Shown: piece by piece, positions 26,793-46,722 of the stretch
How the letters are laid out: each line of letters opens with the position of its first letter
How positions within the stretch are numbered: position 1 is the first letter of the stretch
Assembly: GCA_021325635.1 (NCBI GenBank)
Contig: JAJPGV010000018.1
Location: forward strand, 1 to 64,000
DNA: 64,000 nt
Reading direction: 5' to 3'
Source: Chloroflexota bacterium
GTDB taxonomy: Bacteria > Chloroflexota > JAJPGV01
Position numbers and translations under genes: made by a program
The notes under the pieces: model-generated
The model's database searches: none
What the model was told of the DNA's origin: nothing
What the model saw: only the letters and a program-made list of their open reading frames with translations

Positions 26793-27908
26793 TCAGTGGC
26801 CCCAGGAAGAGGAATCCTTGATGTGCTCGATTCCGCCCAGGAACTCGTGGCCGAGCTGGCGGGACCAGACCGAGATCAGCTTGGCCGGCTTGTCGCCGTC
26901 ATTGAAGTGCTGGTGCGCGGTCATGGGCGGGATGCAGATCAGGTCGCCGGCCGACCAGGCCTGGCGCGTGCCCTCCTGCATGTCGTGGCCCTGCCCTTCG
27001 AGCACGAGCAGCAGCTCTTCGAAGATGTGGCGGTGCTCGCCGCTGCTGCCGCCGGGCTCGATCTCCAGGGCCATCAGGTCCAGCGCCTGCGCCGCCACCT
27101 TGGTCCAGCGGCTGATGTAGAACTTGAGCTTACCGTGGCGAGTCTTCTCCCAGGCCACGTCGCCGTCGCGGATGATGCGCGGCGCCTGCTGCTCGAGCTC
27201 GTTCTCCTCGACAAGCTTCTTCAGGAACCAGTCGTACAGGGTGTCGCCGCCGGGCGCCTGGCGCACGGACCGGCGCTCACGAAAGACCTGCTCGCGCTTG
27301 GCGTCGCCGCCCAGACGAACCTCCAGGTCCGCCTCCAGGCCCAGCACGCCGGCCGGCACGCGGTAGCCATCGAGCTTGCCTGACGAGCCGCGGATTGGCT
27401 CCGTGCCGTCGGGCAGCTGCTGGAGCTCGTACTGCTCCTGCCGGAGCAGGCCGAGGACGTGCCACAGGCGGACCTGCGGCAGCCAGACGCGCAGCCCGCT
27501 GCTGCCGGCCACGAAGTGCGAGCGCGTGTAGGGCGGAATCAGCACGGCGTCGCCGGCGGTGAAGGCGTGGCTCTCGCCATCCTGCACGGACTCGCCGCTG
27601 CCGGAGATGACGTAGGCCAGCTGCGACGGGATGCTGCGCTGATCGTCGGTATGCTGCCCGGGCTCGAGGTCCAGGAAGCGGCAGGTCAGCGCGCTCAGCG
27701 GCGCCACGCTGTAGCGCTCGAATACGCGCGGATCGCCCAGCGCCCAGCCGCCCTTGGCAAACATGGCCGGCTTGACCACCCGGGGCAGCAGCTGCATGCG
27801 CTCGCGTTCCAGCTTCTGCTTGATGAAGCGACCTTCGTAGTCGTAGTAGAGCTTGGGATCGACCTCTTTCTGGGTCAACCCTTCCTTGGTGAGTTCCTGT
27901 TCCGCCAT
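26793..27908 (-). CDS. Two-domain cupin (gentisate-dioxygenase-like fold)
   Basis: 371 residues with two cupin barrels. The first (about 65-160) lacks the HxH ligands (HTDDQRSIPSQLAYV) and is probably structural. The second (about 260-345) is complete: HRHIFEELLLVLEG plus AHQHFN. This unequal arrangement resembles gentisate and 1-hydroxy-2-naphthoate dioxygenase bicupins, where one domain carries the ring-cleaving iron. Start ATG follows the previous gene closely (6 bases). Confidence 0.82.
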   Translation of the reverse strand: MAEQELTKEGLTQKEVDPKLYYDYEGRFIKQKLERERMQLLPRVVKPAMFAKGGWALGDPRVFERYSVAPLSALTCRFLDLEPGQHTDDQRSIPSQLAYVISGSGESVQDGESHAFTAGDAVLIPPYTRSHFVAGSSGLRVWLPQVRLWHVLGLLRQEQYELQQLPDGTEPIRGSSGKLDGYRVPAGVLGLEADLEVRLGGDAKREQVFRERRSVRQAPGGDTLYDWFLKKLVEENELEQQAPRIIRDGDVAWEKTRHGKLKFYISRWTKVAAQALDLMALEIEPGGSSGEHRHIFEELLLVLEGQGHDMQEGTRQAWSAGDLICIPPMTAHQHFNDGDKPAKLISVWSRQLGHEFLGGIEHIKDSSSWGH

Positions 27909-27914
27909 GTTGGC

Positions 27915-29054
27915 CTACCTTTCCCCGTATTCCGGAGCGTCTTCCAGCTGCTCGATTCCCCCCAGGCCCAGGTCGGTGACCATGCTCGGCATGGAGCTGA
28001 AAAGCAGCGCCGGATTATCCGGATCTGTGTTGAAGTGCTGGTGCTCCACCAGCGGTGGGATGTTGATCAAATCGCCCTTCTCCCAGTTCCAGCGCTGGCC
28101 GTCGTGCAGGTCGTAGCCGCGGCCTTCGAGGACCAGGATCTGCTCCTCGGCCGCGTGGCGGTGGCGTCCGGAGCGGCTGCCGATGGGCACCTCCAGCATG
28201 TACAGCCAGACGCGCCGAGCGGCATTGTCGATGAACGGATGCACCAGCCACTTGATCTTGCCCTGAGGGGTCAGCTCCCACGGCTGATCGTCGAAGCGGA
28301 TGACGTGGGTCACGTCCTCGCAGAAGGCGACCTCTTCGTGCATGAGCTGCATGTAGCGGTCGTAGGTGTTCTCCACCGGACCTTCCCACGGCCCCGCGGC
28401 GCGGCGGGCGGCAAAGGCGGACTCCACGTTGGGCTGCGCTCCGAGCCGTACCTCCAGGTCTTCGGTCAGCCCCAGCACGCCCTTCTTGATGACGTAGCCG
28501 ACCAGGTTGCCGGACTCATCTCGAATAGGGTCGGTGCCCTCCGGGAAGGTGACCTTCTCGCTGAACTTGTGCTGCTCGCGGACCATCAGGCCCAGCGCGT
28601 CGATCATGCGCGTCTGCGGCACGTAGATCTGGCAGCCCACGTCCAGGTCCCCGCCGTGCTGGTGGATGGTGTAGGGCGGCACGACCAGCAGGTCGAACGT
28701 CTCGAAGGTGTAGGTCTTGCCGTCGTTCCACTCCCAGCCTTTGCCCGAGGTGCAGAACAGCGTTGGCGCGCTGATGTGGCGATGCGCGCCGCGCACCGGC
28801 GAGTTTGGCGGGACGTCCGAGAAGTGGCAGGTGAGATCGTGCAGCGGCGCGCGGGTGAGGATCTCCACGCAGGCCAGGTCGCCCGTTTGGTGGGGGCTGC
28901 TGTGGCCGTTCACCGTCGGCTGTGGCGGAATGGGGGTCATGACGTGCGGCAGGCCGTCCATCAATGAGCCTTCACGATGCTGAAAGACGGCCTGCAGGGC
29001 CTCTACGGGAAGAGCGCGCGAGGCCTCGTCGCGCGCTTCGGTGACTGTCGACAA
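27915..29054 (-). CDS. Two-domain cupin
   Basis: 379 residues. Both domains keep the His ligands: domain 1 AHRHISAPTLF with IHQHGGD (Glu replaced by Thr), domain 2 RHRHAAEEQILVLEG with EHQHFNTD. It is closely similar to the protein at 32982-34121 along its length (the stretch KGWEWNDG, then the PPYT segment, then ENTYDRY), so the two are paralogs, duplicated around the AAA ATPase and single cupins. A ring-cleaving or other oxygenase role is likely from the fold but not from any substrate motif. Confidence 0.82.
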   Translation of the reverse strand: MSTVTEARDEASRALPVEALQAVFQHREGSLMDGLPHVMTPIPPQPTVNGHSSPHQTGDLACVEILTRAPLHDLTCHFSDVPPNSPVRGAHRHISAPTLFCTSGKGWEWNDGKTYTFETFDLLVVPPYTIHQHGGDLDVGCQIYVPQTRMIDALGLMVREQHKFSEKVTFPEGTDPIRDESGNLVGYVIKKGVLGLTEDLEVRLGAQPNVESAFAARRAAGPWEGPVENTYDRYMQLMHEEVAFCEDVTHVIRFDDQPWELTPQGKIKWLVHPFIDNAARRVWLYMLEVPIGSRSGRHRHAAEEQILVLEGRGYDLHDGQRWNWEKGDLINIPPLVEHQHFNTDPDNPALLFSSMPSMVTDLGLGGIEQLEDAPEYGER

Positions 29055-29060
29055 GAGCCG

Positions 29061-29627
29061 CTATTCCTCGGGGAAGTAGTCCTGGAAGCCCGCCACGGCA
29101 TCCTTGGGCGCCTTCTCCTTGAATTCCTGGAAGTTCAGGTTGGCGAAGTTGTAGACGGGCTTGGTCTTGACGATCAGCACCCGGGCCGGCTTCTCCGGAT
29201 CGCTGTTGAAGTGCTGGTGGACCGTGCCGGGGGCCACGAAGCAAACGTCGCCCTCTTCCCAGTCCACGCGCTCGCCGTCGCTGATGTCGTAGCCCTTGCC
29301 CTCGAGCACGAACAGCAGCGCCGAGTTCTGGTGGCCGTGGCGCTGCGATTTGGACCCCGGCGCCAGCTCCTCATACGAGGCCTGCAGCGTCTGCATGATG
29401 CCCATGCTGGGGTTGAGGATGTTCTTGTGCCAGACCTGCGGGCCGCCACGCCACTTGAAGTTGCTGGTCTTGTAGACGCGGGGGACGGAGCGCATACGGG
29501 CGCGCTCCTCACTGAGGCTGTACTTGGTGCTGGCGATGGCGCGTACGAAGACGCGCTCGACCTCGTACTCCTGCTCCACTTCGGGCTCGATCTCACGCTC
29601 GGTAACCATTGCGCTGCGGTCGATCAT
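29061..29627 (-). CDS. Single-domain cupin, tandem paralog A
   Basis: 188 residues. The cupin core is RHGHQNSALLFVLEG and PGTVHQHFNSD; Glu of motif one is replaced by Ala/Ser, so the metal would have three His ligands. The start MIDRSAMV and the central KYSLSEERARMRSVPRVYKT are nearly the same as in the next gene upstream, as is the end YNFANLNFQEFKEKAP: a recent tandem duplication. Cytosolic, no other domain. Confidence 0.8.
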   Translation of the reverse strand: MIDRSAMVTEREIEPEVEQEYEVERVFVRAIASTKYSLSEERARMRSVPRVYKTSNFKWRGGPQVWHKNILNPSMGIMQTLQASYEELAPGSKSQRHGHQNSALLFVLEGKGYDISDGERVDWEEGDVCFVAPGTVHQHFNSDPEKPARVLIVKTKPVYNFANLNFQEFKEKAPKDAVAGFQDYFPEE

Positions 29628-29653
29628 GATGGTGGTGCTCCTTCCTTAGCTTT

Positions 29654-30220
29654 CTATTCCTCGGGATGGAAGTCCTGCCAGCCGGTGGTGGCAGTCTTCG
29701 GCGCCTTTTCCTTGAACTCCTGGAAGTTCAGGTTGGCGAAGTTGTAGATGGGCTTGGTCTTGATGATGAGCAGGCGGCAGGGCTTGTCGTCGCTGCCGTT
29801 GAAGTGCTGGTGCACGGTGCCCGGGGCGACCAGGCAGACGTCGCCCTCCTGCCACTCGACGCGCTCACCGTCGTTCACGTCGTAGCCGTGGCCTTCGAGC
29901 ACGTACAGCAGCGCCGCGTTCTGATGGCCATGGCGGTTCGATCGGGCGCCGGGAGCCAGCTCCTGGTAGGTTGCCTGCAGCGTCTGCATGATGCCCATGC
30001 CGGGGCTGAGCAGCTGCTTGTGCCAGATCTGCGGGCCACCCGTCCAGCGCATCTTGCTGGTCTTGTAGACGCGGGGGACGGAGCGCATACGGGCGCGCTC
30101 CTCGCTGAGGCTGTACTTGGTGCTGGCGATGGCGCGTACGAAGACGCGCTCGATCTCGTACTCCTGCTCCACTTCGGGATCGAGCGTACGCTCGGCAACG
30201 AGGGCGCTGCGGTCAATCAT
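29654..30220 (-). CDS. Single-domain cupin, tandem paralog B
   Basis: 188 residues, same layout as the gene at 29061-29627: MIDRSALV start, KYSLSEERARMRSVPRVYKT, then RHGHQNAALLYVLEG and GTVHQHFN. The start at 30220 is set by this alignment; the frame is open further upstream. Differences are spread over the protein, so both copies look maintained, perhaps as a heteromer. Confidence 0.8.
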   Translation of the reverse strand: MIDRSALVAERTLDPEVEQEYEIERVFVRAIASTKYSLSEERARMRSVPRVYKTSKMRWTGGPQIWHKQLLSPGMGIMQTLQATYQELAPGARSNRHGHQNAALLYVLEGHGYDVNDGERVEWQEGDVCLVAPGTVHQHFNGSDDKPCRLLIIKTKPIYNFANLNFQEFKEKAPKTATTGWQDFHPEE

Positions 30221-30242
30221 GAGCGGCTCGCCGGTCCCGTTC

Positions 30243-30803
30243 CTAGGATTCCTTCCACTCCGGGGCTGGCTCGATCTGCTCGAGGTCGTGCCAGCCGAGG
30301 AGCTTGTAGATGCGGGAGTTGGCGGAGATGAAGCGCACGTTGGTCTTGGAGTCGGAGTTGAAATGCTGGTGCACGGTGTTGACCGGCACGAATACCCAGT
30401 CTCCGGCCTCCCAGTCGAAGCGCTGTGGCTTGGGCGAGACCTTCCAGCCGTACTTCTCGCCCATGTCCAGCTCCACGTCCCAGTGCAGCGAGTAGCCGCT
30501 GCCTTCCAGGATGAACATGAACTCCTCGGCCATGTGGCGGTGCTTGCCGGTGCGGCCATCGGGCGGGATGACCTGCATGTAGGCCTCGATGTCCTTCACC
30601 CGCGAGTTGAGCTTGGGATGGGCCATGTGCTTGATGCGCCCGTGCGGCGTATCCTCCCAAACCATCTCCGTGGCGCGGATGATCTTGGCCGCCTTGGAGT
30701 CGAGGTACCTTTCCTCCTTCACGGCGGCGAGATCCTCCGCGTACAGCGGCGGACCGTCAATGCCTTCCTGCCAGCGCTTGGCCTCTCCGAATTCCTTTCG
30801 CAT
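30243..30803 (-). CDS. Single-domain cupin
   Basis: 186 residues. Complete metal motif: GKHRHMAEEFMFILEGSGY and NTVHQHFNSD. A 25-residue insertion rich in Trp, Asp and Lys lies between the two motifs (HWDVELDMGEKYGWKVS), a feature not seen in the other single cupins here. Directly follows the AAA ATPase gene (18 bases), in the same operon. Confidence 0.8.
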   Translation of the reverse strand: MRKEFGEAKRWQEGIDGPPLYAEDLAAVKEERYLDSKAAKIIRATEMVWEDTPHGRIKHMAHPKLNSRVKDIEAYMQVIPPDGRTGKHRHMAEEFMFILEGSGYSLHWDVELDMGEKYGWKVSPKPQRFDWEAGDWVFVPVNTVHQHFNSDSKTNVRFISANSRIYKLLGWHDLEQIEPAPEWKES

Positions 30804-30821
30804 CGTTTCCTCCTGTTGGTG

Positions 30822-32975
30822 TTACAGAGCCCCGGACACTGCCGGGCGTTCGCCGTTCGTTCTGGTGGTCATGACCGCGTCGAGCGCGGCCGAGAGGTGC
30901 GATCCGGAGAGGACCGCGTCGCCGCGGTACTCCTGCTGCCGCAGCGCGATGATCTTGGCCTGGTCGGTGAGCGCGGCCAGGTCCGCGCCCGAGAATGCTT
31001 CCGACTGCTCGGCTATCCAGGCGAACATGGACGGCCAATCGGTCTTGGGATCCTTGGGAATGGAGTCGAGCAGGATGCGCAGCACCTGCTCGCGGCCTTC
31101 GCGGGTGGGCAGGCCGACGTACAGCTGCAGTCCCAGGCGTCCGTGGCGCAGCAGGGCGGGGTCGAGCAGGTCGCGGCGGTTCGTCGCGGCCAGGACCACG
31201 ATCTGGTTGGTGGGCTGGATGCCGTCCATCTCGGCCAGGAGCTGATTGACCACGCGCTCGGTGGTGGCGTTGGTCGCTTCGCCCTGGCGGCGCGGCGCGA
31301 TGGCGTCGATCTGGTCGAAGAAGACGACCGTGGGCGCCACCTGCCGGGCCATGCGGAAGACGTGCCGGATGGCCTCCTCGGACTGGCCCAGCCACTTGCT
31401 GAAGATCTCCGGGCCGTTGACCGGGATGAAGTTGGCTCCGCACTCGCGCGCCACCGCCTTGGCGAGCATCGTCTTGCCGGTGCCGGGAGGGCCGTAGAGC
31501 AGCACGCCCGCGGAGGGCTTGACGTGCAGCCGGGCAAACGCGTCCGGGTAGATCAGCGGCATCTCGACCGCTTCGCGCAGGCTCTGGATCACGTGCTCCA
31601 GCCCGCCCACGTCGGCCCAACCGACGTCGGGCACGTCGGTGAGCGTCTCACGCATGGCCGAGGGGTGAGTCTGCTGCGCGGCGGCCAGCAGGTCGTCCTT
31701 GCCGACGACGATGCGCAGGTCCTCGTTCGAGGCTTCGCTCAGCCCGACGAATCCGGGTCCCGCGGTGCGGCGCAGGGCATTGAGGCCGGCGCGGCGGACG
31801 AGCTCCATCAGATCGGCTCCCACGTAGCCATGGGTGAGCTGGGCCAGCTCGGGCAGGAACTCGATCGCGTCTTCGCTCAGCGGCACGCGGCGGGTGTGGA
31901 TGTGCAGGATTGATAGCCGGGCGTCGGCGTCGGGCGGACCGATGTAGATCTCGCGGTCGAAGCGACCGGGCCGGCGCAGGGCAACGTCCACGGAGTTGAC
32001 GCGGTTGGTCGTACCGATGACCACGACGTCCTCCATACTGATGAGGCCGTCGAGCAGTGACAGGAGCTGCGTGCCCATGCGCAGGTCGGCCTGCGAGCCG
32101 ATGTCCTCGCGCTGCGGCGCGATCGCGTCCAGCTCGTCGATGAGCACCACCGAGGGGCTGTGCTCCATGGCCTCTTCGAAGACCTTGCGCAGGTTGGCTT
32201 CGGTGCCACCGTGCACCGAGCTCACAATCTCGGGACCGTTGATGTACAGGAAGTGGGCGCCGACCTCGTTGGCGATGGCCCGCGTGAGATGCGTCTTGCC
32301 GACGCCCGGCGGTCCGTACATGAGGATTCCGCGCGGCGGGTCGATGCCGATGCTCTCGTACACCTCGGGAAAGCGCAGCGGGCATTCGACCAGCTCGCGA
32401 ATGAGGTCGATCTCTCCATGCAGGCCGCCGATGTCGTCGAACGTGATCAGGTTGGCCGAGATGCCGGGCCGCAGGGCGTTGGTGCGCAGCACCACGCGTG
32501 TGCCCTCGACCACCTGACCAAACTCAGGATCGACGGAGATGACGCGCATGAGCACGCTGCGGGCAAAGTCGGGCAGCTTGACGGAAACGAGCATGCCGCT
32601 GCAGGCCAGCTGGCCCTCCTCAGCGAAGCGCCGGCCCAGGTCGCGCTCGAGGCTGGTCAGATTGCCTCCCACCGGGGCCAGTGGCTCCAGCACCAGGCGC
32701 TTAGCGTCGGCCACTTCCACAGGCGTCACGACAATCTCCTCGCGCAGGTCGGGCTTGAGGAACTGCACCTGGTAGCGGTCCAGCCGTAGACAGCCCCGGC
32801 CGTCGTCCTGAGGGCGAGGCTGGACGCGGGCCAGCAGCCGCCGGCCGCGTTTGGTGCCAAGCTCGACCACTGTGCCCGGCTCGATATGCTCGCGGGCCAG
32901 GATGGCCGGATCGACGTAGGCGACGTTGCGCCCGCTCTCGGCGCTGCCGAGACGTTCTACCCTCAGTGTCAGCAC
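30822..32975 (-). CDS. Cdc48/VCP-type AAA ATPase with a degenerate second ATPase domain
   Basis: 717 residues: N-terminal Cdc48-like double-psi barrel region (1-180), D1 (about 180-400) and D2 (about 450-690). D1 is complete: Walker A GPPGVGKT (221-228), Walker B VVLIDELDAIAP (Glu281), arginine-finger region RRPGRFDREI. D2 has Walker A GPPGTGKT (495-502), but Walker B reads VVFFDQIDAIAP, with Gln555 (codon CAG, 31311-31313) for the catalytic Glu, and the finger region is HGRLGLQL. Known E-to-Q mutants of AAA proteins bind but do not hydrolyse ATP. Placed between a bicupin gene and single cupins, so it may remodel or assemble these proteins. Confidence 0.93.
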   Translation of the reverse strand: MLTLRVERLGSAESGRNVAYVDPAILAREHIEPGTVVELGTKRGRRLLARVQPRPQDDGRGCLRLDRYQVQFLKPDLREEIVVTPVEVADAKRLVLEPLAPVGGNLTSLERDLGRRFAEEGQLACSGMLVSVKLPDFARSVLMRVISVDPEFGQVVEGTRVVLRTNALRPGISANLITFDDIGGLHGEIDLIRELVECPLRFPEVYESIGIDPPRGILMYGPPGVGKTHLTRAIANEVGAHFLYINGPEIVSSVHGGTEANLRKVFEEAMEHSPSVVLIDELDAIAPQREDIGSQADLRMGTQLLSLLDGLISMEDVVVIGTTNRVNSVDVALRRPGRFDREIYIGPPDADARLSILHIHTRRVPLSEDAIEFLPELAQLTHGYVGADLMELVRRAGLNALRRTAGPGFVGLSEASNEDLRIVVGKDDLLAAAQQTHPSAMRETLTDVPDVGWADVGGLEHVIQSLREAVEMPLIYPDAFARLHVKPSAGVLLYGPPGTGKTMLAKAVARECGANFIPVNGPEIFSKWLGQSEEAIRHVFRMARQVAPTVVFFDQIDAIAPRRQGEATNATTERVVNQLLAEMDGIQPTNQIVVLAATNRRDLLDPALLRHGRLGLQLYVGLPTREGREQVLRILLDSIPKDPKTDWPSMFAWIAEQSEAFSGADLAALTDQAKIIALRQQEYRGDAVLSGSHLSAALDAVMTTRTNGERPAVSGAL

Positions 32976-32981
32976 GCCGGA

Positions 32982-34121
32982 CTAAACCCCCTCGTATTCG
33001 GGTGCGTCTTCGAATTGCTCGACGCCGCCCAGATCCATGAACGTGTAGATGCTGGGTACGGAGTGCAGCAGCACGGCCCGATCCCGGCCGGTATTGAAAT
33101 GCTGGTGTGTAACGCCGGCGGGGATGCAGATGAGGTTGCCGGCGTCCCAGTTCCAGCGCTCGCCGTCGTGCACGTCGTAGCCGGAGCCTTCGAGCACCAG
33201 GATCTGCTCCTCGGCCAGGTGGCGATGCTTGCCCGAGCGGCTGCCGGGCGCGATCTCGCTGAAGTACATCCACATGTGGTTGGCCGCGGTCTTGGTGGTC
33301 GGGTGGACCAGCCACTTGAGCTTGCCCATGGGAGTCATCTCCCACGGCAGCTTGGCTTCAGCGGCCACGTGGTCGACTTCCCGGCAGAAGTCGGCCTCAT
33401 CGTGCATGAGCTTGACGTAACGATCGTACGTGTTCTCGACGGGTTGGTTCCAGGAGCCGGCGGAGCGGCGGGCCTTGAAGGTGGCGTCGCGGCTGGGCTC
33501 CGGCCCCAGGATGACCTCGATGTCCTGCTCGATGCCGAGCACGCCCTTCCTGATGCGATAGCCCTTGAGCTGACCTTCCTCGTCGTAGATCGGGTCGGTG
33601 CCTTCGGGGAAGGTGGGCTTCTCGCTGAGCTTGTGCTGCTCGCGCCACATCAAGCCCAGGATGTGGTCAATGCGGCCGGTCTCCGGCACGTAGATCTCGC
33701 AGCCGATTTCCTTGTCGCCACCGTGCTGATGGTTGGTATAAGGCGGGACGATCATCAGGTCCCAGCTCTCGAACTCGTAGCTGGTGCCGTCGTTCCACTC
33801 CCAGCCCTTGCCGCTCATGCAGAAGAGGGTCGGAGCGCCGATATGGCGGTGCTGCCCGCGCACCGGCGCATGCGGCGCGATGCCGGTGAAGTGCGCGGTC
33901 ATGAGGTAGTGCGGGCCACGGGTCAGCAGCTCGTAGCAGGTGTGGTCACCGGTCTGGTGGGGACTGTCCATGCCCTGCACGGTGGGCTGCTTGGGCAGCT
34001 GCTCGAGGACGTGGGGCAGAGCGTCCTGAACCCTGCTCTCGCTCTCCTGAAACACGGCCAGCTTGGCCGAGTCCGGCAGGGTTTGCTGGTCGACGTCCTT
34101 CCACGGTTCGAGCTGAATCAT
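32982..34121 (-). CDS. Two-domain cupin, first gene of the cupin operon
   Basis: 379 residues from the ATG at 34121 (MIQLEPWKD). Domain 1: QHRHIGAPTLFCMSGKG and NHQHGGD; domain 2: KHRHLAEEQILVLEG and THQHFN. Paralog of the protein at 27915-29054. It ends 6 bases before the AAA ATPase start on the minus strand. The 282-base gap upstream separates it from a divergent solute-binding lipoprotein gene, so promoters for both probably lie there. Confidence 0.82.
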   Translation of the reverse strand: MIQLEPWKDVDQQTLPDSAKLAVFQESESRVQDALPHVLEQLPKQPTVQGMDSPHQTGDHTCYELLTRGPHYLMTAHFTGIAPHAPVRGQHRHIGAPTLFCMSGKGWEWNDGTSYEFESWDLMIVPPYTNHQHGGDKEIGCEIYVPETGRIDHILGLMWREQHKLSEKPTFPEGTDPIYDEEGQLKGYRIRKGVLGIEQDIEVILGPEPSRDATFKARRSAGSWNQPVENTYDRYVKLMHDEADFCREVDHVAAEAKLPWEMTPMGKLKWLVHPTTKTAANHMWMYFSEIAPGSRSGKHRHLAEEQILVLEGSGYDVHDGERWNWDAGNLICIPAGVTHQHFNTGRDRAVLLHSVPSIYTFMDLGGVEQFEDAPEYEGV

Positions 34122-37212: not shown

Positions 37213-38538
37213 ATGGCGGCGATTGACGATCTGCTGCGGCTGGACGAAGGGCTGATCAGCGGCCGCGTGCTCACTGACTCGGGGATGTACCGGCTGGAGC
37301 AGGAGCGCATCTTCGGACGAAGCTGGCTGTTCGTGGCCCACGAGTCGGAGATCCCCAAGCCCGGCGACTTCGTGACCCGCTCGATGGGCGAGGACCCGGT
37401 GATCGTCTCGCGGGCGCAGGATGGCAGCCTCCACGTGATGCTCAACGTTTGCCGCCACCGCGGTCGCAAGGTGTGCGCCGAGGACGCGGGCAACGTCCGC
37501 AACTTCCGCTGCGGCTATCACGGCTGGACCTACAGTGAAGCCGGGCAGCTCACCGGCGTGCCCTTCTTCGACGTCCACCAGGGTCGCCTGGACCGCACCA
37601 GCCTGGGGCTCTGCCAGGCCCGCGTCGACAGCTACCAGGGTCTCATCTTCGCCACCTGGGACGAGACGGCGACCTCCCTGCGTGATTACCTGGGGGAGCT
37701 CACCTGGGTGCTGGACATCCTGTTTGGCCGCACGGCGAACATGGAAATCGTGGGGCCGCCGATGCGCTGGGTGGTAGACGCGAACTGGAAGCTGGGCGCC
37801 ACGAACTTCACCGGAGACGCCTACCACCTGCCGACCACGCATGGCTACGGGTCCGCGTTGGGGTTGGACGTGACTCGCGGCCGGCGAGCAGGCTACACCA
37901 TCTCGACGGCCAACGCTCACGCGGCCAACGTCAACCGCTGGCCGGAGGGCAACATGGGCAGGCCCTATCTCTCGCTGCCGGAGCAGCTGATCGCCGAGTT
38001 CGAGCAGCGCCTCAGCGCCGATCAGCTGGAGGTGATGCGGACCATGGTGTCCTTCGCGGGGAACCTCTTCCCCAACTGCAGCTATCTCAACATCGCCACA
38101 GTGGGCTTCCTCAACACCGAATGGCGCACGGGCGAGCAGCCGGCCTCTGCCGAGGACTCGAAGGCCACCTCGTTCCTCACCCTGCGGCAGTGGCAGCCCA
38201 GGGGTGTGGATAAAACCGAGATCTGGTCCTGGCAGCTCATGGATCGAGACGTGCCCGACTGGTGGCGGGAATCGTCCATCGCCTGCTACACGCGCTCCTT
38301 TGGCTTGGCGGGCATGCACGAGCAGGACGACCTGGCCAACTGGATGGCGATCTCGGAAGGCTGCCGGGGTCCGATGGGCCGCAAGCTGTGGCTCAACTAC
38401 CAGATGCGTTTGGGCGAGCGCGAAGCGCCTTCGGATTGGAAGGGGCCGGGCGAGGCTGATTACCTGTATCCCATGTCCGTGTCCGACCGCAACGAGCGCG
38501 CCTTCTATCGCCGCTGGGCCGATCTGCTCAGGGATTAG
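37213..38538 (+). CDS. Rieske aromatic-ring-hydroxylating dioxygenase, alpha subunit
   Basis: 441 residues. Rieske ligands C80-x-H82 and C100-x-x-H103 (VCRHRGRKVC, CGYHGWTY); iron ligands D202-x2-H205-x4-H210 (GDAYHLPTTHG) after NWKLGATNFT. This is the benzoate/salicylate-type alpha subunit layout. No beta subunit, ferredoxin or reductase is adjacent. AGGAGA precedes the ATG. Substrate unknown. Confidence 0.9.
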   Translation: MAAIDDLLRLDEGLISGRVLTDSGMYRLEQERIFGRSWLFVAHESEIPKPGDFVTRSMGEDPVIVSRAQDGSLHVMLNVCRHRGRKVCAEDAGNVRNFRCGYHGWTYSEAGQLTGVPFFDVHQGRLDRTSLGLCQARVDSYQGLIFATWDETATSLRDYLGELTWVLDILFGRTANMEIVGPPMRWVVDANWKLGATNFTGDAYHLPTTHGYGSALGLDVTRGRRAGYTISTANAHAANVNRWPEGNMGRPYLSLPEQLIAEFEQRLSADQLEVMRTMVSFAGNLFPNCSYLNIATVGFLNTEWRTGEQPASAEDSKATSFLTLRQWQPRGVDKTEIWSWQLMDRDVPDWWRESSIACYTRSFGLAGMHEQDDLANWMAISEGCRGPMGRKLWLNYQMRLGEREAPSDWKGPGEADYLYPMSVSDRNERAFYRRWADLLRD

Positions 38539-38629: not shown

Positions 38630-38971
38630 TCATTCACTCAACAGGTCCTTATCCCGAGTGACGAGGTGGGTGACGCCGCCAGTGAGCGCCGCGGCGAGAA
38701 CTTGATCGTCGTCCGGATCCCGACAGACCGCCGGGACTGCTATGGGCTCCACCATCGTCGCCAGCCTCTCAATGGCCTCACACGTGGCTGCCGCGGCGAG
38801 CCGCTCGAAATGAAAGATCTCCAACAGGCACTCTTCTAGCTCGGCCATGAGCGCTTGGCTGGTGCAGATTTCGAGCTGTCCGAGGATCGCCGCCTCAAGC
38901 AGCGCTCTGGGCGCTCCACGGGGCGACGTTATGGCTGAAGCGAGGACGTTTGTGTCGAGGAGCGCCTTCAC
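38630..38971 (-). CDS. PIN-domain toxin (VapC-type)
   Basis: 113 residues from a GTG that overlaps the antitoxin stop (GTGA). PIN acidic residues: LLDTNVLASA (Asp), the central Glu in ALMAELEE, VCRDPDDDQVLAAAL and VTRDKDLL. It matches the 'toxin component, PIN family' group with an intact set of residues. A ribonuclease toxin held by the adjacent ribbon-helix-helix protein. Confidence 0.85.
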   Translation of the reverse strand: MKALLDTNVLASAITSPRGAPRALLEAAILGQLEICTSQALMAELEECLLEIFHFERLAAAATCEAIERLATMVEPIAVPAVCRDPDDDQVLAAALTGGVTHLVTRDKDLLSE

Positions 38972-39253: not shown

Positions 39254-39407
39254 CGCCTTTAAGAGTAGCCACCCGAAGGCCGTACTGCAATGGCTCGAGG
39301 ATCAGGCGCTGCGGAGCTGCCTGCGACCTCAGCTGGTGCAATTGACAAGGGGAAGGGGGGATGTTTGGATTGACGTACGGACGTGCGACGAGACGATTAG
39401 GAGAAGC

Positions 39408-40268
39408 ATGATGGTGGAACAGGGCGCGACGGCGGCGGCGCTGCAGGCAGGGCACAGCGCGCCGGTAGCGGCTGGGACGAAGGAGATCTCCGGCTTCAGC
39501 CACCTGGTGCTGGAGGTCAAGGATCTCGATCGGGCCGAGCGCTTCTACCAGGACGTCATCGGGCTGGAGCTGATGGGCCGCGGGCTGCTGGCCGAGCCCC
39601 GAGCGCATTCGTTGATGCGCATGAACACCGGCCAGTTCATCCTGCTGATCCAGCACGACAGTCCGGTACCCATCCGCCACAACACCACCACTATCCATCA
39701 CGCCTTCCTGCTGACGATCGAGGAATTTCAGGCGGCCAAGCAGCGCTTCGATGCAGCCGGCTACGACGTGTCGGACAACCGCGCCGCCTTCCGAGCGCGG
39801 GGCGAGTACTCCATCGACATCTGGGACCCGGACGGGCATCGCTGGCAGGTGCAGGCCTTCGGGCCGGAGCAGCACGATCTGATCAAGCCCGGAACGGGAG
39901 TGGTGGACTGCGGCCTGGCCGAAAAGTATGAGCTGGGCTCGGTGACGAGCTTCGGCAAGGCGCAGTTCTTCCTGGTGCACGCGAAGGAGGGATTCCTGGC
40001 GTTGTCGCGCTGGTGCCGTCATGCCAACGGGCTGCTCAGCTACCAGGGCGAGCATTGGCGTTTCTTCTGCGCCTTCCACGGCGCAACCTACAACCTCCGC
40101 GGAGACCATACCGGGCACATGGCCGGAATCCCGCCGCTGCGAATGCACCCGGTGACCCTTAGCCCGGAGGGGCACGTGCTGGTGGACACGGACGCGGTGC
40201 TGGAGCGCGACAGCGGGACCCTGCCGGAGTACGCTCCCTGCCAAGCGGCGCCAGCCCCCGCGCGCTAA
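39408..40268 (+). CDS. VOC (glyoxalase/extradiol-like) - Rieske fusion protein
   Basis: 286 residues with AGGAG before the start. Residues 28-155 are a VOC half-barrel pair (ISGFSHLVLEVKDLDRAERF, then SIDIWDPDGHRWQVQAFGPE). Residues 175-262 are a Rieske-type ferredoxin domain: C203-x-H205 and C221-x-x-H224 (WCRHANGLLS, CAFHGATYNL). An extradiol-like domain with its own Rieske cluster is an uncommon layout. It could be a one-chain oxygenase or carry electrons for the oxygenases nearby. Cytosolic. Confidence 0.82.
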   Translation: MMVEQGATAAALQAGHSAPVAAGTKEISGFSHLVLEVKDLDRAERFYQDVIGLELMGRGLLAEPRAHSLMRMNTGQFILLIQHDSPVPIRHNTTTIHHAFLLTIEEFQAAKQRFDAAGYDVSDNRAAFRARGEYSIDIWDPDGHRWQVQAFGPEQHDLIKPGTGVVDCGLAEKYELGSVTSFGKAQFFLVHAKEGFLALSRWCRHANGLLSYQGEHWRFFCAFHGATYNLRGDHTGHMAGIPPLRMHPVTLSPEGHVLVDTDAVLERDSGTLPEYAPCQAAPAPAR

Positions 40269-40398: not shown

Positions 40399-41322
40399 AT
40401 GGCGCGAGTTGAGGTTGACATCCACGCGGCTCCCGCCGTTGGCAGCTTGGGGCTCCTGGAAGCGTATGCGCAGGTCGTGGTCGAGGTCGGCGATCTTGGT
40501 GCCGCCGAGCGCTTCTACGGAGAGGTGCTGGGATTCGGGCGAGACGGCAAGACTCCCGATGGGCCTCGCTTCCGCGTGGCGGACGGGCAGTTCGTGGTGT
40601 TGAAGTCGTCCCCGTCGCCGCGAACGCTGCCTGACAGCGGTGTGCACCAGGCGTATCGCTTCACGGCGCCGGAGTTGGCGGCCGTGACGCAGCGCCTGGC
40701 GGCTGAGGGAGTGGTCATCGAGGACTACCGCGAGGATCGACATGCGGAGGACGACCAGAATCGCTATTGCGCCGACCCGGCCGGGAACCGCGTGCAGCTG
40801 GTGCTGGGCGAGTCGCGTGGGATCGACCACGCGGCCGTCGAGACGCACGACCTGGAATGGGCAGAGGTGTTCTACACCCACGTCCTGGGAGGGGCGATCG
40901 AGACGCGCATCGGCTGGCACATGGATGACTATGCGCGCGCCCAGGAGTGGGCGGAGGGACGTGAGAAGTGCGCCCCGGGCTTGCGGCGCTGGGAAAAGCT
41001 GTATGCGGAGGGCGCGGAAAACGCCCGCGTGGCCCGGGTGACTCCACACCTGTTCGTGGATCTGGGTGTCGGTGCGTTGCTCGGGATCTACTTAGCCACC
41101 GAGCATCGTCAGGAGCCGCCTCCGGATGAATTCCGAGGCACGCCGCGGCTGGGGTTCAGGGTTGCGCGCGGCCGTCTGGCCGAGGTCGAGGAGCGGCTGC
41201 GGAATTACGTCTTGCGCTGCATGGAATCGAACCCGGCAACGGGAGGGCCCTTCGAGCAGGCCGCAGGCAGGCTGTTCGTTCGAGATCCCGGCGGCAACTT
41301 CCTGGAGCTCGGCGAAGGCTAG
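40399..41322 (+). CDS. Two-domain VOC (extradiol dioxygenase-like) protein
   Basis: 307 residues. Domain 1 (about 15-140): AYAQVVVEVGDLGAAERFYG to DPAGNRVQLVLGE. Domain 2 (about 143-305): IDHAAVETHDLEWAEVFYTH to LFVRDPGGNFLELGEG. Domain 2 keeps His at the start and Glu at the end as in metal-binding VOC enzymes. An insertion rich in Arg/Trp/Glu splits domain 2. It follows the VOC-Rieske gene on the same strand and may form a pathway with it. Confidence 0.75.
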   Translation: MARVEVDIHAAPAVGSLGLLEAYAQVVVEVGDLGAAERFYGEVLGFGRDGKTPDGPRFRVADGQFVVLKSSPSPRTLPDSGVHQAYRFTAPELAAVTQRLAAEGVVIEDYREDRHAEDDQNRYCADPAGNRVQLVLGESRGIDHAAVETHDLEWAEVFYTHVLGGAIETRIGWHMDDYARAQEWAEGREKCAPGLRRWEKLYAEGAENARVARVTPHLFVDLGVGALLGIYLATEHRQEPPPDEFRGTPRLGFRVARGRLAEVEERLRNYVLRCMESNPATGGPFEQAAGRLFVRDPGGNFLELGEG

Positions 41323-41346: not shown

Positions 41347-43113
41347 CTACTGTTGGACGGGACGAATGAGCAGGGACCGTCCGGCGAAGGACAATGCCAC
41401 GACCATGAGGGCTAGGACGACGCCGTAGGCTGAGGCATCGTTGACCCGGCCGTTGGCCCACTCGTTCCAGATGAGCGTGGACAGGACGGCGGTGCGCTGG
41501 TTGTACAGCATCAGGGCAATTGACAGCTCGCGCATGCTGCCCATGAGCACCCATACCCCGGTGTTGACCAAAGCCGGCATCATCAACGGCATAACCACTT
41601 TGCGGAAGCACAGCAGCGGACTGGCACCGCTGACCTGGGCCGCTTCCTCGAGCTCCCCGTGGATCTGGACCTGGGCCGCGATGAGCGTGCGTGATGGGAA
41701 CGCCAGGTGCTTGGTGGCCACGCCCACGACGATGATCCAGATCGTGCCGTAGATGGGGATTGGCAGGAACAGATAGACCAGCATGACGGCCAGACCGATG
41801 ACGATGCTGGGCAGGGTATGCGGCAGGAAGGTCAGCACGTCCAGCAGGCCCCGGCCCTTGATCCGGCTGCGCACGATGAGCCAGGCGGCCAGGGAGGTGA
41901 TCAACAGGATGGCGACGGTGGTGACGGCCACCATGATGACGGTGTTGGAGAAGGCCCCCAGGGCGATCGGGTTATGGAGGATGCGGTTGTAGCCATCGAG
42001 CGACAGCTTGGGCAGCAGGTCGGCTGCCGGTGGCTGGTAGAAGGGCAGCAGGCTGCCCCACACCAGGATGAAGAAGGGCAGGACGGCCGCCAGCAGCAGG
42101 TAGATCAGCACGCCCGCGAGCGCAGCGAAACGCCATGCCCCAAGCTCGACCTGCCGCTGCCGGTACGCCTTGCCCGAGACAGTGTTGTAACGCTCGGCAT
42201 CGTTGGTGAACCGCCGGTAGTAGCGCAGCAGAACCAGCGCCAGCGCGACCAGCAGAACGGCTAGGGCGCTGGCCTGCCCGTAGTTGGCGAGACCGGCGCT
42301 GCCGTGCGTGGCCTCATAGATCTGGGTGCCGAGGACGAAGATGCCGCCGTTGAGCCCAATCACTCCCGGTACCTCGAACGCTTCCATGGCGGCGATGCCT
42401 TCGTAGATCACGACCGCCAGCAGCGCCGGCGCAAGCATCGGGACGGTGACGCGCCGAAGCACTTGCCAGCGCGGAGCGCCCGAGGCGAGCGCGGCCTCTT
42501 CGTGCGAGGGGTCCATGGTCCGGACGGCCGCGAGCAGCAGCAGGAAGGAGCCGGGCACCATGGTCAGCGCCTGGACAAAAATCATGCCCCAGATGTTGTA
42601 GACGTCCAATGGCCCGCTGCCCTTGAGGTGGAAGACCGACCGCAGGATGATATTGATGAGCCCGCTGTTGCTGCTGGTCAGCAGCACCCAGCCCATGGCA
42701 GTGAGCATGCCGGGGAGGGCCAGCGGCGCGACGATCAGCCCGAAGGCGACGTTGCGGCCGGGCATATTCGTACGCTCGACCAGCCAGGCGAAGGCAAAGC
42801 TGATCGGCAGGCCGAGGGCCACCGAGCCAAGCGTGAACAGCAAGGTGTTCCAGAGAACCGGATAGGTGCTCGGGTCGGCGTAGATGTCGATGTAGTTGAC
42901 CAGGCTGTAGGGAACCCCGGCTTCGAAGGGAAGCCGTGTCGCCGTGTCGCGCACGCTGCTCCACAGGAGGAAGACGGCTGGTGCGAGAACGAGGTAGAGG
43001 ACGACCGTGAGGACGACGGCAAACAGGACGGTTTCCGTCGAGGGCGCCCGAAAGCGGGATCGTGGACCGCCCTGCAGCGGTAGGCCGGCGCTGATCGCAG
43101 GCGTGGCTTGCAT
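41347..43113 (-). CDS. Fused ABC transporter permease (FbpB/AfuB type)
   Basis: 588 residues with two tandem permease halves of about six helices each. Both EAA loops that contact the ATPase are visible: EEAALASGAPRWQVLRRVTV and EEAAQVSGASPLLCFRKVVM. The start at 43113 (MQATPAIS) is one choice; an earlier one is possible. It lies 112 bases after the solute-binding lipoprotein gene on the same strand. No ATPase subunit gene is near. Confidence 0.88.
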   Translation of the reverse strand: MQATPAISAGLPLQGGPRSRFRAPSTETVLFAVVLTVVLYLVLAPAVFLLWSSVRDTATRLPFEAGVPYSLVNYIDIYADPSTYPVLWNTLLFTLGSVALGLPISFAFAWLVERTNMPGRNVAFGLIVAPLALPGMLTAMGWVLLTSSNSGLINIILRSVFHLKGSGPLDVYNIWGMIFVQALTMVPGSFLLLLAAVRTMDPSHEEAALASGAPRWQVLRRVTVPMLAPALLAVVIYEGIAAMEAFEVPGVIGLNGGIFVLGTQIYEATHGSAGLANYGQASALAVLLVALALVLLRYYRRFTNDAERYNTVSGKAYRQRQVELGAWRFAALAGVLIYLLLAAVLPFFILVWGSLLPFYQPPAADLLPKLSLDGYNRILHNPIALGAFSNTVIMVAVTTVAILLITSLAAWLIVRSRIKGRGLLDVLTFLPHTLPSIVIGLAVMLVYLFLPIPIYGTIWIIVVGVATKHLAFPSRTLIAAQVQIHGELEEAAQVSGASPLLCFRKVVMPLMMPALVNTGVWVLMGSMRELSIALMLYNQRTAVLSTLIWNEWANGRVNDASAYGVVLALMVVALSFAGRSLLIRPVQQ

Positions 43114-43224
43114 AGGGTCAGGCGCAACCGGGCGTCGGGAGACGCGCAAGCCGCGGCCGGACAGGCGGGGCGCAGCGCCCCGCTCTGCACCGATGATGCC
43201 GCGCTATCACGCTCGCCCGGTTAA

Positions 43225-44373
43225 CTAGCCGTTCTTGCCGCGGATGATGGCCATCGCATCGGCCTGCGTTTTGGCGTCCGTTTCGATGTCGGTTGGCTGC
43301 TCCATGATGAGCTTGACGCCCAGGCTCTGGACGTACTGGGCCGTCTTGGTGCTGGTGCCGGGTATCAGCAGCGACCGGTTGTTGGTGGTGTCGAACACGT
43401 TTTGCGCCTCAGGCGTGGCGAGCCAGCCCGCAAAGAGCCGAGCGGCATTGGGATGGGCCGCGTCCTTGAGCACCCACACACCGTTGTTGTCCACGCTGAC
43501 CGGCGAGGCAGCGGTGCCCTTGATGGGCGCGCCCTTGGCCGTGTACTTCATGATCGATCCGGCGTAGAGCGACAGCGCGACCGGCGCGTCACCGGCAATC
43601 AGCAGGCTGGTGGTGTCGGAGGCGGAGCGTGAGAAGCGCGGCTTCTGGGCGGCCAGCTTGCGTGCAAAATCGAGCATGGTGTCACGTCCCCACTCCTTGG
43701 CCAGCGCCCAGAAGACGTCGTTCGCGTCCTGGGCAACGATCACTTTGCCGCCCTGGAAGCGGGGGTCGAGCAGGTCCTTCCAGTCCTTGGGGGCGGAAGC
43801 GTCGTCCAGCAGCTTGGTGTTGTAGGACAGGATGCTGCCGTTTTGGTAGGCGATGACGTAGCGATTATCATCCTGCACGACGTCATTCGACAGGCCGAAG
43901 ACCTTCCTGTAGTCGTAAGTGGCGGCCAGGTCGCGAGAGATGACCTGAGTCATCTCCGACAGACGCGCCCCGGCGAGGTCGGTGCTGACCTTACCCGCGG
44001 CCTTCTCGGTAATGATGCGCTCCAGTCCCTTGTCGGGGCTGATCTCCAGCCGATCGAGCTTGATGCCCGGATAGCGGTCCGAGAAGGCTTTGGCCAGCGG
44101 CAGCCATTGGTCGTCCTGCCAGGACAGGGATGTTTGCAGCGCGCCCTCCTTCTTGGCCGCGGCGTACAGCGCGTCCAGTGTGGCCGGAACCTCCGTCGCG
44201 GCTGAGGTTTGGGCTGAGGACGCCGCCGGCTTGGCCGATCCAGCCGTGGTCTGCGCTGGCGCGGATGAGGGTGCGGCCGAGCCGCAGGCGGTGACGGCGG
44301 CCAGCACGAGCGCAAGGATCGGGGCCCCGAGGGTCGTGTGCCAGGACTGCGCGCGATTCCGGATCGGTTTCAT
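43225..44373 (-). CDS. ABC transporter solute-binding lipoprotein (iron(III)/AfuA-type fold)
   Basis: 382 residues. Signal with lipobox-like AAVTACGSAAP, Ala/Ser linker, then DALYAAAKKEGALQTSLSWQ and the extracellular-binding fold (KAFSDRYPGIKLDRLEISPD). GGAGG precedes the ATG. Same architecture as the protein at 50070. With the permease gene downstream it makes an incomplete transporter set. AfuA-type proteins carry Fe(III), polyamines or organic acids; the ligand is unknown here. Confidence 0.88.
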   Translation of the reverse strand: MKPIRNRAQSWHTTLGAPILALVLAAVTACGSAAPSSAPAQTTAGSAKPAASSAQTSAATEVPATLDALYAAAKKEGALQTSLSWQDDQWLPLAKAFSDRYPGIKLDRLEISPDKGLERIITEKAAGKVSTDLAGARLSEMTQVISRDLAATYDYRKVFGLSNDVVQDDNRYVIAYQNGSILSYNTKLLDDASAPKDWKDLLDPRFQGGKVIVAQDANDVFWALAKEWGRDTMLDFARKLAAQKPRFSRSASDTTSLLIAGDAPVALSLYAGSIMKYTAKGAPIKGTAASPVSVDNNGVWVLKDAAHPNAARLFAGWLATPEAQNVFDTTNNRSLLIPGTSTKTAQYVQSLGVKLIMEQPTDIETDAKTQADAMAIIRGKNG

Positions 44374-44550: not shown

Positions 44551-46722
44551 ATGTCGACGGATATCGCCAAGGGGAAACGCGCCGACCGGGGGCTTCACCC
44601 ATATGTCCTGTACCTTCGGGAGCGCTACCCGGATTACGGGAAGTGGGCCGAGCAGCAGGGTGTCCCGGTCGTATCCGGCCACCACCTCGAGGACTGCCGA
44701 ACCGAACCACTGCAGCCATGGCCGGCTAAGGGCGGCCAGGGAATACTCATCAACCTCTCGGATCAGGCCGTCGACGACGCCTACCTGATCGAGATCGAGC
44801 CGGGCGGCAGCCTGCAGCCGGAACGGCACCTCTACGAAGAGCTCATGTTCGTCGTCTCGGGCAGTGGGTCGGCGGCGGTGTGGAACGACGACGGCCAGCG
44901 GGTGCAGTTCGAGTGGCAGCCGGGCAGCCTTTTCGGGATGCCCATCAACGCGCATCATCAGCTGTTCAATGGCAACGGGCAGAAGCCGGCCAGGCTGCTC
45001 GGTGTCACCAGCGCGCCGCTGGCCATCAACCTCTTTCACAACCTCGACTTCGTGTTCAACTGCTCGTTCGCGTTCGACGACCGCTTCGACGGCCGGGCCG
45101 ACTATTTCGGCGGTGAGAAGACCTTTCGCGACGAAGTGCTGAGCGGGCTGTGGGAGACCAACTTCGTGCCGGACGTGCGCCAGATGGAGCTGCGCGATCA
45201 GGCGGACCGGGGCAAGGGACAGACGATCTTCCTGGCCCTGGCCGCGAGCACGATGAAGGTGCACCTGGCGCGCTTTCCCACGGGAACGTATAAGAAGGCC
45301 CACGCCCACGGACCCGGGGCGCACATCTACGTCCTCGACGGCGAGGGCTACACGCTGATGTGGAAACCGGGCGGCGAGCGGCAGCGCTTCGACTGGCACG
45401 AAGGCTCCCTGATCTCGCCCCCGAACGGCTGGTATCACCAGCACTTCAACACCGGCGACCGCGCGGCGCACTACTTGGCGCTGCACCGGCCCCAGGTTAT
45501 CTACAACAAGCACGGGTCGAACCAGATCGAGTACGAGGACGAGGATCCCGCCATCCGTCGGGAGTACGAAGCCGAGCTGGCGCGGCGGGGCATCGCCCTG
45601 CAGATGGGGGCGCGTGGCACCAAGGAAGCCAAGCGGGCGGCAGGGAAGTCAAAGGCCAGCCGCGAGGAGCGCGCCGGCGTGCACCCGTATGTGACGTACC
45701 TCAAGAACCGCCACTACAGCTACCAGAAGTTCCAGGAGGAGGAGGGCATCCCGGTCGTCAAGGGCTACGCCGTGGAGGACGTGAGCGCGGTGGAGCTAAA
45801 GCCCTGGGCCCGTATGGGCGGGCGCGGATCGTTCATCAACCTCTCGGAGCAGGAGATGGACGACGCCTACGTGGTGGAGATCGAACCGGGCGGTAACCTC
45901 GAGCCACAGGGCAACCTGTTCGAGGAAATCGTGTATGTGACCCGCGGGCGCGGCGCGACCAAGATCTGGCAGCCGGGCTGCGACGCAATCCATTTCGAGT
46001 GGCAGCAGGGCAGCCTGTTCACCATCCCACTGAACGCACGCTATCAGCACTTCAATGGCAGCGGCGACGAGCCGGCGACACTGTTGGCGGTCACCAGCGC
46101 GCCGCTGATGATCAACCTGTTCCACAGCCGTAAGTTCATCTTCGACTGTCCGTACGTCTTCAGCGATCGCTTCGAGGGGACGTACGAGGAGCTCATGCGG
46201 GACCCCAGGTTCCTGGCCGAGGTCCCGGGCGGGCTGTTCGAAGCGAATTTCATTCCGGACGTGGGCCGGGTGGCCATGAACGAGTGGTCGGAGCGGGGCT
46301 TTGCCCTGAAGCACGTGTACATTGCCCTGGCTGCCAACGTGATGAAGGTGCACCTGGCGGAGTTCGCTGTGGGCACCTACAAGAAGGCCCACATGCACGG
46401 GCCGGGCGCGCATATCCTGATCCTCAACGGCACCGGCTACAGCCTGATGTGGAAGCCCGGCGACCAGCCTCAGCGCTTCGACTGGAAGCCCGGCAGCTTC
46501 ATCTCGCCGCCCGGCGGATGGTATCACCAGCACTTCAACACCGGGCCTATCCCTGTGTTCCACCTGGCCTTCCACCGGCCACAGTCGATCCACAGCACCA
46601 CGGCTCGCGATCAGCTCGAGTACGAGGATGAAGATCCCGCGGTGCGGCAGCTGTTCGAGGCGGAGCTGCGTAGGAACGGCGCTGAGTCACGGATGCCGCC
46701 TGTGATGCGGCAGAGCGCTTAG
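44551..46722 (+). CDS. Four-cupin fusion protein (tandem duplicated bicupin)
   Basis: 723 residues in two homologous halves (about 1-355 and 370-723), each with two cupin barrels. Half 1: ERHLYEELMFVVSG with AHHQLFNGNG, then AHAHGPGAHIYVLDGEG with WYHQHFNTG. Half 2: QGNLFEEIVYVTRG with ARYQHFNGSG (first His lost), then AHMHGPGAHILILNGTG with WYHQHFNTG. Both halves end with EYEDEDPA. Each half equals the 366-residue bicupin at 53060, so this is an in-frame fusion of two such genes. GGGAGGG precedes the ATG. Confidence 0.88.
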   Translation: MSTDIAKGKRADRGLHPYVLYLRERYPDYGKWAEQQGVPVVSGHHLEDCRTEPLQPWPAKGGQGILINLSDQAVDDAYLIEIEPGGSLQPERHLYEELMFVVSGSGSAAVWNDDGQRVQFEWQPGSLFGMPINAHHQLFNGNGQKPARLLGVTSAPLAINLFHNLDFVFNCSFAFDDRFDGRADYFGGEKTFRDEVLSGLWETNFVPDVRQMELRDQADRGKGQTIFLALAASTMKVHLARFPTGTYKKAHAHGPGAHIYVLDGEGYTLMWKPGGERQRFDWHEGSLISPPNGWYHQHFNTGDRAAHYLALHRPQVIYNKHGSNQIEYEDEDPAIRREYEAELARRGIALQMGARGTKEAKRAAGKSKASREERAGVHPYVTYLKNRHYSYQKFQEEEGIPVVKGYAVEDVSAVELKPWARMGGRGSFINLSEQEMDDAYVVEIEPGGNLEPQGNLFEEIVYVTRGRGATKIWQPGCDAIHFEWQQGSLFTIPLNARYQHFNGSGDEPATLLAVTSAPLMINLFHSRKFIFDCPYVFSDRFEGTYEELMRDPRFLAEVPGGLFEANFIPDVGRVAMNEWSERGFALKHVYIALAANVMKVHLAEFAVGTYKKAHMHGPGAHILILNGTGYSLMWKPGDQPQRFDWKPGSFISPPGGWYHQHFNTGPIPVFHLAFHRPQSIHSTTARDQLEYEDEDPAVRQLFEAELRRNGAESRMPPVMRQSA

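Follow-up and report, generated by a model that had tools for sequence, protein, structure and literature searches.

In the textbook view, VOC dioxygenases activate oxygen and need no external supply of electrons to do so. One gene in the window (the whole stretch of 64,000 nucleotides analyzed here) encodes a VOC domain and a Rieske [2Fe-2S] domain in a single chain, hereafter termed protein A. The locus raises the question of what a Rieske cluster does on a VOC scaffold and with which partners it works.

Gene A encodes a VOC domain fused to a Rieske domain

The features of gene A are as follows (the homologue counts refer to the alignment described in the next section).

39408..40268, + strand: protein A, VOC-Rieske fusion, 286 aa (open frame, Pfam, conservation, AlphaFold2 and Foldseek)
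39399..39403, + strand: Shine-Dalgarno-like AGGAG, 4 nt 5' of the ATG of A (direct reading)
39489..39863, + strand: VOC domain, aa 28-152 (Pfam PF00903, AlphaFold2, Foldseek matches to FosA/FosX)
39501..39503, + strand: His32, first VOC metal-ligand position (His in 36 of the 37 rows covering the position)
39696..39698, + strand: His97, second VOC metal-ligand position (41/41)
39846..39848, + strand: Gln147 at the third VOC ligand position, which is Glu in classical VOC metalloenzymes (of 41 homologues, 37 with Gln and 4 with Glu)
39915..40193, + strand: Rieske [2Fe-2S] domain, aa 170-262 (Pfam PF00355; PDB 9rk4 by sequence and fold)
40014..40079, + strand: Rieske cluster ligands C203, H205, C221 and H224, CxH-x15-CxxH (each 41/41)

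The frame runs uninterrupted through 286 codons to its stop codon. The Glyoxalase profile (PF00903) matched aa 30-148 with 40.2 bits against a Pfam cut-off of 20.6, which places the N-terminal half in the VOC superfamily, and the Rieske profile (PF00355) matched aa 179-243 with 28.6 bits against a cut-off of 20.3. The motif C203-x-H205-x15-C221-x2-H224 is complete and agrees with the Rieske pattern CxH-x(15-17)-CxxH. With both domains above the Pfam cut-offs and the ligands intact, the first-pass annotation was correct in describing a fusion of the two domains, with a complete Rieske motif, in one chain of 286 residues.

In the AlphaFold2 model of A, built from 24 sequences, pLDDT was mostly between 83 and 96 across the two domains but fell to 60 and 72 in VOC loops; the first 30 residues had low confidence. 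In Foldseek searches, the N-terminal part of the model matched VOC proteins of the FosA/FosX type (TM up to 0.74) and the C-terminal part matched the soluble Rieske protein 9rk4 (TM 0.83 by target). The sequence profiles agreed with Foldseek, giving the FosX/FosA-type VOC proteins and 9rk4 as the nearest solved relatives.

When the C-terminal residues of A were shuffled, a loose Rieske pattern appeared in 432 of 200,000 shuffles; a chance motif is excluded mainly because the four Rieske ligands are invariant in 41 distinct homologues. The comparison of A with a 72%-identical paralogue gave a dN/dS of about 0.2 in both domains, and selection between the paralogues is purifying in both halves.

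Conservation and distribution of the VOC-Rieske family

The conservation set comprised 41 distinct homologues of A from Chloroflexota and one small alphaproteobacterial order. Nearly all of the comparison sequences were from draft or metagenome assemblies, and the genes in the comparison loci were called in the present analysis. All four Rieske ligands (C203, H205, C221 and H224) were found in the 41 homologues; a lack of conservation of the C-terminal cysteines and histidines had been named beforehand as the observation that would refute the fusion, and this check did not refute it. In the VOC domain, His97 and the D140-P-D142 turn were invariant, and His32 was retained in all but one of the 37 rows with a residue at that position. 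Position 147, where FosA-type and extradiol VOC enzymes have their Glu metal ligand, was occupied by Gln in 37 homologues and by Glu in the other four. Because the third ligand position is mostly Gln, A does not carry the His/His/Glu set of the extradiol dioxygenases. The term "extradiol-like" in the first-pass annotation is only partly apt, as the nearest solved VOC relatives are of the FosX/FosA type and the third ligand position has Gln147 instead of Glu. Two glycines in the linker, Gly164 and Gly169, were also invariant, suggesting a fixed domain interface.

That A is the product of read-through, an assembly error or a chance fusion would be compatible with the draft or metagenomic origin of nearly all homologues. 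We regard the probability of such an artefact as practically nil, since there are 41 distinct sequences from two phyla with continuous frames and a conserved linker; a chance motif or frame is ruled out by the ligand conservation in all 41, together with the dN/dS of about 0.2. The VOC-Rieske fusion is a real, conserved family and not an isolated oddity.

The source genome carries two more full-length paralogues of A (72% and 50% identity). In the phylum, the family was found in only 4 of the 400 sampled genomes, the source genome counted, and one of the genomes, G184, alone gave 16 matches. A scan of GTDB contigs with an 8-row alignment recovered A in Chloroflexi-labelled MAGs and in alphaproteobacterial (Rhodospirillales-type) MAGs; a single-sequence scan of the contigs gave no match. 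No full-length A was found outside those two groups in the GTDB scan, which used two short peptide patterns that distant holders may escape. The alphaproteobacterial order possesses A in 8 of 11 genomes, as compared with 3 of 385 sampled across the class. In the phylogenetic tree, the alphaproteobacterial sequences were separated from the main Chloroflexota sequences with modest support (87/88), and a shorter sister subfamily fell outside both other groups under midpoint rooting. A search for plasmid-borne relatives of A yielded only a distant Fos-type VOC match.

Relationship to known VOC and Rieske proteins

By both sequence and structure, the VOC domain of A is nearest to the type I VOC metalloenzymes of the FosA/FosX group (e.g., PDB 2p7k and 1npb), which share the VOC fold and whose ligand histidines align with His32 and His97. 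A differs from this group in having Gln instead of Glu at the third ligand position, in the fused Rieske domain and in its catabolic-looking operon. We rejected a fosfomycin-resistance protein, the nearest by fold, since the best score for a Fos family was 36.6 bits against a cut-off of 250. A plain extradiol dioxygenase was likewise rejected on the H32/H97/Q147 triad and the scores for the curated families (20.7 against 366 bits for TIGR03213 and 20.3 against 321 bits for HpaD).

Three other systems bear a partial resemblance to A. The VOC extradiol dioxygenases encoded with XylT-type ferredoxins (PMC2590616) likewise combine VOC and [2Fe-2S] proteins in a catabolic-looking operon, and one partner of A, protein B (see below), has a His/His/Glu set. 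In the XylT systems, however, the ferredoxin is a separate, plant-type protein, whereas in A the cluster is of the Rieske type and fused; there are three VOC proteins instead of one in the system of A, and none of the extradiol families matched closely in sequence. The alpha subunits of Rieske oxygenases also unite a Rieske cluster and a putative mononuclear-metal domain in one chain, but A has the reverse domain order and a VOC domain where they have Ring_hydroxyl_A or LigXa_C; Pfam gave only VOC and Rieske matches in A, with no Ring_hydroxyl_A-like domain bearing a 2-His-1-Asp site. ChaP, the VOC oxidase that takes part in chartreusin biosynthesis, is reported to work with oxygen activated by flavin and hence to depend on supplied reducing power (PMC12281474); it is without an iron-sulfur domain, biosynthetic and only distantly related to A.

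We found no described VOC-Rieske fusion, nor a gene cassette of the kind described below, in Pfam, NCBIfam, PDB and the open-access literature searched, and no report of Gln as a VOC metal ligand in the open-access literature. Both domains are known and their combination appears to be new, with a real chance that A represents a new enzyme class.

The best match to the C-terminal domain of A in both sequence and fold is the soluble Rieske protein kuste4569 of Kuenenia (PDB 9rk4), a stand-alone protein with an extra Cys pair that is lacking, both residues alike, in the main subfamily of A. We infer a bc1-like soluble Rieske protein as the ancestor of the Rieske domain of A. In Rieske proteins of high potential, a Cys pair of this kind forms a disulfide beside the cluster, unlike in the lower-potential ferredoxins (PMC12445004). 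Both cysteines (positions 208 and 223) were present in 5 of the 41 homologues of A, neither in 36, and a single one in none; all of the carriers belong to the sister subfamily, accounting for 5 of its 7 members. This both-or-neither pattern provides independent evidence, from the sister subfamily, for a working cluster. Protein A of the window has G208 and F223 and is without the pair that marks the bc1-type high-potential proteins; the main subfamily to which it belongs is presumably of the low-potential kind.

At five loci of the sister subfamily (L022, L025, L029, L031 and L033), the bc1-like extra Cys pair goes along with a different downstream VOC gene. Another locus, L118, bears three sister-subfamily genes in tandem at about 5.1-8.3 kb.

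Gene A belongs to a cassette of three VOC genes

We compared 22 distinct A loci by gene calling and clustering. The recurrent order was A-B-C, in which B is a single-domain VOC protein of about 155 aa and C is a two-domain VOC protein of about 305 aa. Among the main-subfamily cases, B started at most 121 bp from the stop codon of A in 33 of 34, with the window as the exception, and C lay downstream of A in 32 of 34. The association spans two phyla. The partner found in the window is the following.

40399..41322, + strand: protein C, two-domain VOC partner, 307 aa (Pfam on a longer frame; synteny)

C follows A (39408-40268) and leaves no space for B. The source genome possesses two B genes and three A genes, and B was detected in exactly the same four genomes as A in the phylum sample (4/301). 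B and C form one ORF in genome G037 (L117:6591-7937, - strand), and the two probably are fused also in two loci of G184, L028 and L026, which are cut by contig ends. B retains a His/His/Glu set (His9, His85 and Glu135). In C, the first domain bears conserved His83 and Gln133, as in A, and the second domain has His144, Gln217 and Glu303. The fold of B was considered as a clue to the substrate, but it matched only generic VOC structures and did not reveal one.

Genomic neighborhood and electron supply

The genes flanking A and C in the window are listed below.

37213..38538, + strand: Rieske oxygenase alpha subunit, HcaE/benzoate-dioxygenase-like, a possible pathway neighbor (Pfam, curated families, clustering)
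38630..38971, - strand: probably unrelated PIN-domain ORF that separates the oxygenase gene from A (Pfam)
41347..43149, - strand: two-module ABC permease (BPD_transp_1), 600 aa from the first start codon (Pfam; the same type recurs at homologous loci)
43225..44373, - strand: extracellular solute-binding lipoprotein of an ABC transporter (the Met preceding the lipoprotein signal was taken as the start)
44551..46722, + strand: multi-cupin protein with a weak resemblance to 5-aminosalicylate dioxygenase (cupins are also recurrent in the vicinity of homologous loci)

Recurrent neighbors of the A loci are ABC importers, M24-family hydrolases, LysR regulators, cupins and UbiD decarboxylases, with Rieske oxygenases at some loci. 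The neighboring cupins weakly resemble gentisate and 5-aminosalicylate dioxygenases. Judged by this gene content, the A loci appear to serve the import and breakdown of organic compounds, probably aromatic ones. The oxygenase alpha gene of the window lies about 870 bp upstream of A, with the PIN gene between them on the opposite strand, and clusters with the alpha genes that precede A in L040 and L050. At these two loci, an alpha/beta pair is located directly upstream, making alpha-beta-A-B-C contiguous. Oxygenase alpha genes were recognized near about 6 of the 22 distinct A loci, a count that covers annotated clusters, singletons only in part, and flanks of uneven length.

No recurrent reductase was found among the neighborhood clusters of A. 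The source genome yielded 60 Rieske-domain matches, most of which are in oxygenase-sized frames, and separate small Rieske ORFs (C54:90998, 110 aa; C53:61663, 114 aa). PF00970 (FNR-type) and PF14759 (GR-type), the domains normally found in the reductases of Rieske oxygenase systems, had no match in the whole 96%-complete source genome, which leaves its approximately 50 oxygenases with no recognized reductase of either type. Comparable oxygenase expansions have been described in SAR202 Chloroflexota, in an account that does not mention VOC proteins (PMC6946804).

Possible function of the A-B-C system

The reading that we provisionally prefer, at somewhat less than an even chance, is that A delivers electrons, as the redox subunit, within a VOC enzyme of several components, A-B-C, represented in the window by A-C. 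The Rieske cluster of A would take single electrons from a cellular donor and pass them to a mononuclear metal, most likely iron, in the VOC domains, where the receiving site may be His32/His97/Gln147 of A or the His/His/Glu set of B. There, O2 would be activated, or an oxidized or quinone-type intermediate reduced, and the substrate would be an imported aromatic or other oxygenated organic compound destined for catabolism. The retention of the ligand positions argues for this reading (the Rieske ligands, His97 and Gln/Glu147 in 41/41, His32 in 36/37), as do the synteny with B and C, the co-occurrence of A and B, the B-C fusions, the Cys-pair pattern and the catabolic-looking neighbors. With ChaP, a VOC enzyme that makes use of reductively activated oxygen is already on record (PMC12281474). 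On the other hand, metal binding in A could be weakened or lost through the Gln at the Glu position, no recurrent reductase accompanies the operon, and the locus in the window is without B. The suggestion in the first-pass annotation that the fusion implies a chemistry different from that of extradiol enzymes is favored, as far as sequence evidence goes, by the Gln-for-Glu change and the invariant Rieske center.

The main rival, which we deem unlikely though to be taken seriously, is that B, C or A would be an ordinary Fe(II) ring-cleavage enzyme and the tethered Rieske domain would serve only to re-reduce Fe(III), in the manner of XylT. VOC-fold extradiol enzymes offer an exact precedent for this function, as the [2Fe-2S] XylT-type ferredoxin encoded alongside them reactivates the oxidized enzyme, e.g., catechol 2,3-dioxygenase (PMC2590616, which cites Polissi and Harayama 1993 and Hugo 1998). 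B furthermore keeps His9, His85 and Glu135, as expected under this rival. Against it, the XylT-type proteins are separate plant-type ferredoxins and not Rieske proteins, a catechol-forming step is not recognizable near most A loci, and the permanent fusion, the Rieske ligands retained in 41/41 and the conserved, non-classical Gln site suggest more than repair.

It was also proposed at first pass that A is an electron-transfer partner for nearby Rieske oxygenases, in which case the VOC domain would be a docking or substrate-handling module. The alpha gene about 870 bp upstream in the window, the contiguous alpha-beta-A-B-C order in L040 and L050, and a genome with 60 Rieske domains and no recognized FNR-type or GR-type oxygenase reductase (PF00970, PF14759) all speak for it. 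Nevertheless, we consider it distinctly unlikely: an alpha gene was recognized near only about 6 of 22 loci, as opposed to the near-constant B and C, separate small Rieske ORFs (C54:90998 and C53:61663) exist, and the Rieske domain of A is closest in sequence and fold to the bc1-like soluble 9rk4, not to oxygenase ferredoxins. A further alternative assumes that the VOC domain of A is a non-catalytic binder, its site degraded by Gln147, and that A regulates or protects a B-C enzyme by means of its Rieske cluster, which would act as a sensor of redox state or oxygen. The Gln at the carboxylate ligand position in 37/41 would fit, as would the existence of binding proteins with the VOC fold, among them TnmS1, one of the Foldseek matches of A; however, the near-invariance of His32, His97 and Asp140-Pro-Asp142 is unusual for a degraded site and A bears no regulatory domain, rendering this alternative improbable.

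Returning to the preferred reading of A as an electron-delivering subunit, A-B-C would probably be an undescribed electron-driven enzyme that degrades organic molecules. In effect, it would play on a VOC scaffold the part that Rieske oxygenases play on a helix-grip one. A bolder version, which we put forward with less confidence still, is that A-B-C would represent an oxygenase class of its own, driven by electrons that pass from a Rieske cluster to mononuclear iron bound in a VOC fold by His/His/Gln (A) or His/His/Glu (B). To our knowledge, the known Rieske oxygenases share one catalytic scaffold; if true, the proposal would mean that Rieske clusters have become coupled to oxygen activation by non-heme iron in a second, independent way. 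A conserved fusion and a three-gene cassette in two phyla offer a place to ask whether a Rieske cluster drives another iron scaffold, and the partners B and C together with the diagnostic Gln147 bring the question within reach of routine expression and spectroscopy. An undescribed enzyme type would also be added to those oxygenase-rich Chloroflexota for which a role in processing resistant organic matter is assumed (PMC6946804).

Other genes in the window

The multi-cupin protein at 44551-46722 (+ strand) comprises 723 aa with repeated cupin domains and an apparent internal duplication. Elsewhere in the window, a run of cupin proteins occupies 26793-34121 (- strand), broken at 30822-32975 by a double AAA ATPase of the CDC48-like type, and two more Rieske oxygenases, both with LigXa_C domains, are encoded at 25342-26658 (- strand) and 59532-60749 (+ strand).
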